A DNA stretch of 34,715 nucleotides from Solirubrobacteraceae bacterium (GTDB taxonomy: Bacteria > Actinomycetota > Thermoleophilia > Solirubrobacterales > Solirubrobacteraceae): assembly GCA_030681525.1 (NCBI GenBank), contig JAUXSD010000193.1:1-34715 (forward strand), in the 5' to 3' direction. Below, piece after piece: positions 12,585-13,734 of the stretch (position 1 is its first letter; each line of letters opens with the position of its first letter). Made by a program: the position numbers and the translations under genes. The notes under the pieces were generated by a model, which was not told where the DNA came from, did not search any database, and worked only from the letters and a program-made list of their open reading frames with translations.

Positions 12585-12656
12585 GCCCCCATGGTGTAGC
12601 GGTTAGCACGCCAGCCTTTCACGCTGGTAGCGGGGGTTCGATTCCCCCTGGGGGTA
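12585..12656 (+). tRNA. tRNA-Glu (TTC)
   Basis: 72 nt with a full cloverleaf. Acceptor stem GCCCCCA/TGGGGGT (with a G-T first pair), anticodon loop CTTTCAC flanked by CCAGC/GCTGG, T-loop TTCGATT, discriminator A. CCA is not encoded. A -10-like TAGACT (12563-12568) overlaps the stop of the helicase gene. It is tail-to-tail with the next minus-strand gene, 3 nt away. Confidence 0.96.
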
Positions 12657-12659
12657 CTG

Positions 12660-13333: not shown

Positions 13334-13644
13334 GGGCCGTTAGCTCAATCGGTAGAGCAAGGGACTTCGGTACGGAGCGCCAGTCGGGAGACCGCTGGTT
13401 TGTCGGCAGCTGTTTGCTGGGACCCCCTGAGAGCCTGAGGTACCCATCGCGGTGACAATCCTCAGGATTGGGCAATCAGCAGGCAACCCCGCAAGGGAGA
13501 GCCCTCAGAGGCCATACGCTGCCCACCCTAACGCGGACCGGCGAGGGTGAAGAGATGGTCCAGACCGCAACGCCACGAGCGGCCGGTGAGAGCCGGTGCG
13601 GCAGGTTAATCCCTAGGTTCTGGGTTCGATCCCCAGGCGGCCCA
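13334..13644 (+). tRNA. tRNA-Lys (TTT), interrupted by a group I intron
   Basis: Exon 1 is 13334-13367 and exon 2 is 13606-13644; spliced they make a 73-nt class I tRNA. Acceptor stem GGGCCGT/GCGGCCC (one T-G pair), D-arm GCTC/GAGC, anticodon stem AGGGA/TCCCT, T-arm CTGGG/CCCAG with loop TTCGATC, discriminator A. Joining ACTT to TTAA gives the 7-nt loop CTTTTAA, anticodon TTT, as in typical bacterial tRNA-Lys. The break is after the wobble base U34. A -10 box TAAGCT (13317-13322) lies 11 nt upstream, the same distance as before tRNA-Asp in this window. tRNA-Val follows 16 nt later and is probably in the same transcript. Confidence 0.93.
13368..13605 (+). ncRNA. group I self-splicing intron in tRNA-Lys (about 238 nt, no ORF)
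   Basis: The intron follows T34 and ends in G, as group I introns require. P1: exon CTT plus intron CG (13365-13369) pairs with CGGAG (13373-13377), placing a U-G wobble at the 5' splice site. P2-like hairpin CCAG-T-CGG-GAGA-CCG-CTGG at 13380-13398. P4: TGCTG (13415-13419) with CAGCA (13477-13481). P7: GGCCAT (13510-13515, inside the R element CTCAGAGGCCATA) with ATGGTC (13555-13560, inside the S element GAAGAGATGGTC). The P7 bases differ from the commonest GACTA/TAGTC yet still pair. Size and site resemble the small cyanobacterial tRNA-Leu introns (IC3-like); the subgroup is inference. No homing endonuclease is encoded. Confidence 0.92.
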
Positions 13645-13660
13645 TAGACGCATCGCACGC

Positions 13661-13734
13661 GGGCGGTTAGCTCAGCTGGTCAGAGCGCCTGCCTTACAAG
13701 CAGGAGGTCCGCGGTTCGAGCCCGCGACCGCCCA
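13661..13734 (+). tRNA. tRNA-Val (TAC)
   Basis: 74 nt, complete cloverleaf. Acceptor stem GGGCGGT/ACCGCCC, anticodon stem CCTGC/GCAGG with loop CTTACAA, T-arm GCGGTTCGAGCCCGC, discriminator A, no encoded CCA. It lies 16 nt after tRNA-Lys. Confidence 0.96.

Follow-up and report, generated by a model that had tools for sequence, protein, structure and literature searches.

The window, a stretch of 34,715 nucleotides (nt) that makes up contig JAUXSD010000193.1 of a Solirubrobacteraceae bacterium, carries at positions 13334-13644 a tRNA-Lys(UUU) gene that is interrupted, between tRNA bases 34 and 35, by a group I intron of 238 nt. Very probably, this tRNA is split by a self-splicing intron, and a second ribozyme family, resembling subgroup IC3, occupies the same bond elsewhere. 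The textbook group I introns of bacterial tRNA genes reside in Leu, Arg, Ile and fMet tRNAs; here a known ribozyme class is found in a new host tRNA. The interrupted gene consists of three parts:

13334-13367, forward strand: exon 1 of tRNA-Lys(UUU), 34 nt, bases 1-34 through the wobble base U34
13368-13605, forward strand: group I intron, 238 nt, recognised by RF00028, a held-out profile and covariation
13606-13644, forward strand: exon 2 of tRNA-Lys(UUU), 39 nt, bases 35-73, ending in the discriminator A73

Exon 1 reads GGGCCGTTAGCTCAATCGGTAGAGCAAGGGACTT up to the 5′ splice site and is followed by the 5′ end of the intron, CGGTACGGAG; the intron closes with GCGGCAGG, and exon 2 starts with TTAATCCCTAGG and finishes with GGCGGCCCA. 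Joined, the two exons form a 73-mer that ARAGORN calls tRNA-Lys(ttt), with the loop CTTTTAA and every stem paired, including one T-G in the acceptor. A cloverleaf with anticodon UUU and A73 was recovered after joining in all 12 genes considered, the window gene and 11 relatives. An earlier reading, made from the letters of the window with no database search (the sequence-only reading), had placed the insertion after the wobble base and held that removal of 13368-13605 restores a 73-nt tRNA-Lys; its coordinates proved exact and the boundaries at bond 34/35 were confirmed. The intron holds no homing endonuclease gene. As no stop-free stretch in its 238 nt exceeds 50 codons, the length of the longest one, a mobile intron of the homing-endonuclease kind was rejected.

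The intron boundaries are also visible in nature. A search of related genomes, which the sequence-only reading had proposed, found the full split gene in 13 of the 232 genomes of the order, its own included, at 81-100% identity and in five genera of two families; this patchy spread is consistent with repeated gain or loss. Within the genus, the gene is present at 95-99% identity in five of the six other species, and the sixth (G006) has an uninterrupted tRNA-Lys(ttt) adjoining tRNA-Glu(ttc) (locus L064). The DNA flanking the G006 gene is 79-82% identical over 1.36-1.42 kb to that of three congeners with the intron (L042, L043 and L044), and 78% identical over 0.74 kb to that of the window's own locus (L039). 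When G006 is aligned to L043, the match is interrupted precisely at the bond between tRNA bases 34 and 35, where L043 has a 236-nt intron; the G006 tRNA is identical to the spliced window tRNA at 62 of 73 bases. G006 is an empty site at the orthologous locus, with which the intron boundaries agree, and such an intron-less congener makes gain or loss directly testable.

A secondary structure was drawn from the window sequence and scored on 25 window-type introns (alignment A2, 25 of 27 window-type rows, without L115 and L153; alignment A3 holds 30 of 34 rows). Its elements are as follows:

13365-13369, forward strand: P1 5′ strand CUUCG, read from the sequence, with a U13367-G13375 wobble at the 5′ splice site
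13373-13377, forward strand: P1 3′ strand and internal guide CGGAG, read from the sequence, with a conserved GGAG word
13405-13410, forward strand: P3 5′ strand GGCAGC, pairing with 13518-13523; 99.3% of cells paired, two-sided changes in 5 of 6 pairs
13415-13420, forward strand: P4 5′ strand, pairing with 13476-13481; 100% paired, invariant in 25 of 25 rows, so that covariation is uninformative
13434-13439, forward strand: P5a 5′ strand CCUGAG, pairing with 13461-13466; 88.6% of cells paired, two-sided changes in 5 of 6 pairs, with a less certain alignment for planctomycete rows
13461-13466, forward strand: P5a 3′ strand CUCAGG, with the pairing data of its partner
13476-13481, forward strand: P4 3′ strand UCAGCA, invariant like its partner
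13510-13515, forward strand: P7 5′ strand GGCCAU, pairing with 13555-13560 in a pseudoknot with P3; five of six pairs counted, 100% paired, two-sided changes in 2 of 5
13518-13523, forward strand: P3 3′ strand GCUGCC, with the pairing data of its partner
13524-13529, forward strand: P8 5′ strand CACCCU, pairing with 13544-13549; five of six pairs counted, 88.0% paired, two-sided changes in 2 of 5
13544-13549, forward strand: P8 3′ strand AGGGUG, with the pairing data of its partner
13555-13560, forward strand: P7 3′ strand AUGGUC, with the pairing data of its partner
13583-13596, forward strand: P9.2 hairpin, stem 13583-13587/13592-13596 and loop GAGA; 99.2% of cells paired, two-sided changes in 4 of 5 pairs
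13605, forward strand: terminal G of the intron (omega G), the last base at 66 of 67 split-Lys loci and at all 67 after locus L143 is shifted one base to the left

The P1 (CTTCG/CGGAG) with its splice-site U-G pair, the P4 (TGCTG/CAGCA), the P7 (GGCCAT/ATGGTC) and the terminal G that had been pointed out earlier are all present, and the GGAG word lies within the first 41 nt of each of the 67 split-Lys introns. Standard pairs occupy 88.9% of the cells, versus 79.0% after shuffling. Two-sided changes occur in 22 of 45 pairs, against a shuffled mean of 12.7, and none of 500 shuffles reached as many, a test that kinship among the rows inflates. The covariation score is 0.311 compared with 0.127 when shuffled, and at most 0.095 for versions slid by 1-3 columns, over which a structure taken from one of its own rows is favoured. 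The poorer helices are two parts of P2 (31.3% and 66.0%, a poor fit beyond the nearest relatives), P6 (66.0%) and P5 (74.7%). Overall, compensatory changes support the predicted ribozyme core, P3-P8 with the P3/P7 pseudoknot.

At a relaxed threshold the Rfam group I model RF00028 matches the window at 13357-13582 with 44.5 bits (E 2.5e-10), which is its sole match in the 4,556,627-base genome; the covariance-model check proposed in the earlier reading thus returned a hit, though one under the gathering score. With Rfam cut-offs the window yields just its three ordinary tRNAs. ARAGORN in normal mode likewise calls just Glu(ttc), Val(tac) and Asp(gtc), missing the split gene as had been predicted for a standard tRNA scan, and annotations in which such bacteria appear to lack tRNA-Lys(UUU) may be in error. 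RF00028 does recognise some relatives: the window-type intron of Agromyces L111 passes the gathering score with 59.3 bits, and L100 is the one checked planctomycete match that lies on the Lys intron, at 37.2 bits. Over 50 genomes the model gave 42 matches in 40, with none in the non-Lys control L113. The 30 of these that were placed comprised 14 on a Lys intron, 15 in planctomycete tRNA-Ile(CAU) and 1 in tRNA-Arg(UCU); with only 14 of 30 on a Lys intron, the presence of RF00028 in 40 of 50 genomes was dropped as support for the Lys introns.

The same interruption is widespread. A collection of species genomes (84,980 species) was scanned with a pattern made up of the 5′ half of tRNA-Lys and an adjoining CTTC, which gave 88 stretches, 80 of them taken as loci. 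At 67 of the 80 the gene is a tRNA-Lys(UUU) split by an intron at this bond, and tRNA-Lys, which the earlier reading did not recall as an established host, is commoner than it had thought. The other 13 include seven intact genes of other tRNAs, the apparently split L092, which is cut by a contig end, and five unplaced loci (L088, L109, L113, L118 and L142). Grouped by record title and exon type and counted by eye, the 67 comprise 31 of a Microbacterium/Nesterenkonia/Prauserella/Phytoactinopolyspora type; 20 of a planctomycete type with Isosphaeraceae among the hosts, including Singulisphaera acidiphila; 10 from Solirubrobacterales/Thermoleophilaceae, including Svornostia abyssi; 3 from alphaproteobacterial metagenome-assembled genomes (MAGs); 2 of an Agromyces type; and 1 from a Rhodothermales MAG. 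L087, a planctomycete-type row, bears the label Alphaproteobacteria; MAG labels do not prove the host. Cultured members place both ribozyme families in Actinomycetota and the window family also in Planctomycetota. These counts add Lys(UUU) as a host in many species, including members of the cultured genera Microbacterium, Singulisphaera and Svornostia. As a separate observation, a MAG titled Bifidobacterium breve (L139, CAMCUD010000009.1) carries a Solirubrobacteraceae-type split gene, and its label looks wrong.

Viral contigs carry the split gene as well. In the IMG/VR collection the same pattern matched 30 contigs, six of which have a split Lys(UUU) gene. Five of them (L356, L366, L375, L379 and L380) hold compact introns of 185-214 nt that score 44-67 bits with RF00028, L366 and L375 being alike; the sixth (L373) has a planctomycete-like 299-nt intron that RF00028 does not see. 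PHROG matches back a phage origin for L356, L366 and L379, and hardly for L380. According to a 2014 review, the phage introns known at that time were confined to protein genes (PMC3984707). A pattern for the cyanobacterial Leu intron gave no intron-bearing tRNA in the viral loci read, among the matches listed, and a plasmid search with the split gene gave no match. Contig L380 also bears an intron-split tRNA that reads as fMet, and ARAGORN finds 16 tRNAs on it, one of them an intact Lys(UUU).

No intact gene for this tRNA was detected beside the split one. RF00005 finds 38 tRNA genes above its cut-off in the genome, among which ARAGORN recognises a Lys(CTT) on contig C243 and no Lys(TTT), and a pattern written to match uninterrupted Lys(UUU) genes had no hit in the same genome; the second copy that the earlier reading wished to see looked for is not found intact in this draft, whose tRNA set is incomplete. 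Since tRNA-Lys(CUU) does not read AAA codons, the split gene is presumably essential. The same pattern found no intact copy in any of the 49 genomes reached from 50 of the 68 split-Lys loci, the 18 loci outside this search being Microbacterium; both exons were read in 48 of the 49, L092 seemingly being truncated by its contig end. Across 346 genomes of the phylum, 244 have an intact Lys(UUU) by this pattern. A loosened split-Lys pattern matched 44 of them, with a true split Lys by its letters only in G000, G005 and G014; the other matches end in ...CTTCC, look like Gly(UCC) genes and were set aside. One genome, Nesterenkonia alkaliphila F10 (G179), has two split tRNA-Lys(UUU) genes (L098 and L112) and no intact one by pattern.

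Phylogenetic analysis separates the introns at this bond into two families. The unrooted tree holds 69 dereplicated introns, 31 near-copies having been removed from 100, and draws on 20 of the 26 alphaproteobacterial RF00028 matches, those placed in a tRNA (L384, L385, L403 and L406 lack a tRNA host, L398 is unclear and L405 is the L163 locus). In it, alphaproteobacterial Leu(UAA) introns stand in for those of cyanobacterial tRNA-Leu. One long branch (length 0.96, support 100/100) divides the tree. On its first side lie the introns that the alphaproteobacterial search yielded in tRNA-Leu(UAA) and -Leu(CAA), -Arg(CCU), -Thr(GGU), -Lys(CUU) and, at bond 35/36, -Lys(UUU), together with 12 of the 40 cellular introns at Lys bond 34/35 and four of five viral rows; the second holds the window intron, 27 more of those 40, one viral row and four 23S rRNA introns. 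The Lys introns of the first side come from Microbacterium, alphaproteobacterial MAGs and most viral contigs, and the window intron groups with those of planctomycetes and Agromyces. A single clade of all Lys-34/35 introns is rejected by the approximately unbiased (AU) test with viral rows (p 0.0039), with cellular rows only (p 0.00012) and with actinobacterial rows only (p 3.3e-7). The bond 34/35 of tRNA-Lys(UUU) was probably invaded at least twice, a conclusion that requires the long branch to be genuine and neither side to be derived from a Lys-34/35 intron that moved away from that site.

Several points weigh against a working intron in the window and two independent families at its bond. 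We infer splicing of the window precursor from sequence only, and a P10 pairing could not be established for this intron. Its 44.5 bits miss the RF00028 gathering score of 50, leaving it silent in a default Rfam scan. When eight loci (six planctomycete, Agromyces L111 and Rhodothermales L131) were searched whole with RF00028 at E 0.1, the Lys intron was matched in L111 only; because this model sees window-type introns poorly, homology to the window type and not Rfam is the basis for taking the Rhodothermales Lys intron and most planctomycete ones as group I, an assignment that for most planctomycete introns also draws on shared covarying helices. The genome is a draft, 95.3% complete with 5.35% contamination, and tRNA-His is also absent from its 38 tRNA genes, so some tRNA genes were lost by assembly or search, possibly an intact Lys(UUU) among them. 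The intact-gene pattern is not exhaustive, as 99 of the 346 phylum genomes have neither an intact nor a true split gene; it overlooks some real genes, and the case for a missing intact copy is therefore strong but short of certain. As for the tree, its MAFFT alignment has to bridge two remote cores on long branches, 18 of the 66 inner branches are left open, and the 23S rows may be joined with L157 by long-branch attraction.

The draft state of the assembly and the low RF00028 score are also what would be expected if the gene were dead, its intron decayed and Lys(UUU) supplied by another, unassembled gene. We consider this highly unlikely. The whole split gene is 95-99% identical in five congeners and shows compensatory change at wider distances, and the 49 genomes in which no intact copy was found by pattern include at least two records that are finished by title, Singulisphaera acidiphila NC_019892.1 ('complete sequence') and Svornostia abyssi CP088295.1 ('chromosome').

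The sequence-only reading had viewed the window intron as an IC3-type intron that jumped from tRNA-Leu(UAA) through a common CTT exon, and both the site and the CTT exon are indeed those of the alphaproteobacterial Leu(UAA) introns. This origin is nevertheless very improbable for the window intron: the 100/100 branch parts it from the Leu/Arg introns, and the AU tests reject one clade for all Lys-34/35 introns. Profile scores agree. A Leu/Arg profile gives six Solirubrobacterales introns 13-19 bits and nine dereplicated Microbacterium-type introns 124-148; a Solirubrobacterales (window-type) profile gives planctomycete-type Lys introns 38-77 bits, two Agromyces-type introns 108-109 and Microbacterium-type introns 7-18. 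The window intron scores 65.4 bits (E 4.4e-20) with a planctomycete-only Lys profile that contains no Solirubrobacterales, versus 15.0 bits (E 1.3e-4) with the Leu/Arg profile; its E values are 6.6e-6 with the 23S profile and 3.4e-3 with the Microbacterium profile. Like the other window-type introns it also has a P5a, here of 6 bp, and it does not group with Leu(UAA)/Arg(CCU) introns in the tree; the P5(a-d) extension is reported to be lacking in IC3 introns (PMC11835236). On the tree, AU tests, profile scores and P5a together, an IC3/tRNA-Leu origin was rejected here. A spread from Leu to Lys may fit other lineages, such as Microbacterium with its 124-148 bits.

The window's ribozyme family lies closer to group I introns found in the 23S rRNA of the same bacterial family. 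Four of these (L069, L070, L071 and L085) share the window intron's side of the deepest branch and have core words in common with it, UGCUGG...CAAUCAGCAGG...CUCAGAG; they differ in their host gene and score 15.6-31.1 bits with the window-type profile. Their exons presumably lie near positions 2593 and 1931 of the large-subunit (LSU) rRNA. Among archaeal group I introns, IA3 introns occur at LSU 2593 and IB4 introns mostly at LSU 1923/1931 (PMC6125680).

The identity of the host tRNA was examined against a reading that shifts the intron by one base, to 13367-13604, and turns the gene into tRNA-Asn(GUU) with the loop CTGTTAA. ARAGORN in intron mode makes this very call, Asn(gtt) with the intron one base too far left, and with these boundaries U would remain the last base of exon 1 and G that of the intron. 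However, the 5′ splice site would then receive a U-A pair instead of U-G. The base before the terminal G, moreover, is G in 45, A in 13, T in 7 and C in 5 of 70 cellular introns (the 67 split loci, the window, L049 and L079), so that 25 of them could not end in G. The discriminator is A73 at 67 of 67 split loci; bacterial Asn tRNAs usually carry G73. A separate intact Asn(GTT) gene lies on contig C134 of the same genome, the uninterrupted gene of congener G006 is Lys(ttt), and the loop CTTTTAA with an intron running from C to G is found at 66 of 67 split loci as placed, with L143 agreeing after its one-base shift. We rejected the Asn reading as extremely improbable on the strength of the A73, the variable penultimate base and the lost splice-site U-G. 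The one-base offset in ARAGORN's intron mode that yields Asn in place of Lys recurs in many relatives.

Finally, the position in the anticodon loop would suit a tRNA intron of the bulge-helix-bulge type removed by a protein endonuclease. This explanation is scarcely credible here, since the group I core is complete, including its P3/P7 pseudoknot, and both the U-G at the splice site and the terminal G are present; such splicing is not known from bacteria.

Among known systems, the closest in position are the IC3 introns in tRNA-Leu(UAA) of cyanobacteria, plastids and alphaproteobacteria, which like the window intron sit in the anticodon loop after base 34, with an exon ending in CUU. The ten alphaproteobacterial ones that we placed measure 210-281 nt and follow CTT; they differ in host tRNA and, by tree and profile on these alphaproteobacterial rows, in family, and the window intron has a P5a. 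The group I introns in tRNA-Arg(CCU) and tRNA-Ile(CAU) of proteobacteria are self-splicing and lie in the anticodon loop. The four alphaproteobacterial tRNA-Arg(CCU) introns placed here are, unlike the window intron, inserted behind base 36, and the tree groups them on the Leu side. We know of no tRNA gene from which the window's ribozyme family has been described. The accessible text of the tRNAscan-SE 2.0 paper counts 36 genomes in which fMet or Ile2 is missing because of group I introns; like the window gene, these are missed by the scanner, and that text does not name Lys (PMC8450103). The only printed claim of a group I intron in a bacterial tRNA-Lys that we found is in a 2017 paper, which describes, for cyanobacterial tRNA-Arg, -Gly and -Lys(CTT), 'group I introns' measuring 22-49 nt (PMC5733544); these are too short for a ribozyme core, and the anticodon is another. 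A 2014 review of tRNA diversity gives cyanobacteria and alpha- and betaproteobacteria as hosts of tRNA introns (PMC4033280). We found no report of a group I intron in bacterial tRNA-Lys(UUU) in the open literature, which is weak evidence of absence, as subscription journals are mostly uncovered.

The proposed splicing pathway is modelled on the general account of the group I family in PMC3984707. The pre-tRNA would fold so that the guide GGAG pairs with the exon CUU in P1; free guanosine held in P7 would attack after U34; and the freed U34 would in turn attack after the terminal G of the intron, releasing the 73-nt tRNA-Lys. With no endonuclease gene, the intron would move rarely and horizontally between tRNA-Lys(UUU) genes at this one bond, and a separate IC3-like family would have arrived at the same bond on its own, both in other bacteria and in phage-like contigs. 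The presence of two ribozyme families at a single bond would constitute a natural experiment on intron site choice, and the sole AAA-reading tRNA detected in the window's genome would rely on splicing. A broader view takes bond U34/35 as a hot spot entered independently by unrelated ribozyme families and carried between phyla partly on phages; because the genomes seem to lack an intact copy, AAA decoding would depend on ribozyme activity, possibly as a checkpoint for GTP, magnesium or temperature. We regard this broader view as unlikely.

Two ordinary tRNA genes called by ARAGORN neighbour the split gene, outside the intron:

12585-12657, forward strand: tRNA-Glu(UUC), also near the split gene in congeners
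13661-13734, forward strand: tRNA-Val(UAC), also near the gene in some congeners

Other intron-bearing genes were met along the way. Planctomycete genomes with a split Lys (L205-L209, L211-L216, L224, L225, L229 and L232) have a second group I intron after base 36 of a tRNA with A73 that reads as Ile/Met(CAU), and thus hold two intron-split tRNAs per genome. The alphaproteobacterial RF00028 search also turned up introns in Lys-UUU after base 35 (L393 and L402), Lys-CUU (L395), Leu-CAA (L394 and L409) and Thr-GGU (L401). Introns in tRNA-Arg(UCU) have a 23S-like core in L412 and a Leu/Arg-like one in L413 and L204, and the intron at L415 interrupts an apparent tRNA-Asn(GUU). Group I introns of 23S rRNA are present in genomes of the window's bacterial family at L069, L070, L071, L081, L082, L084 and L085, some of them with long inserts.
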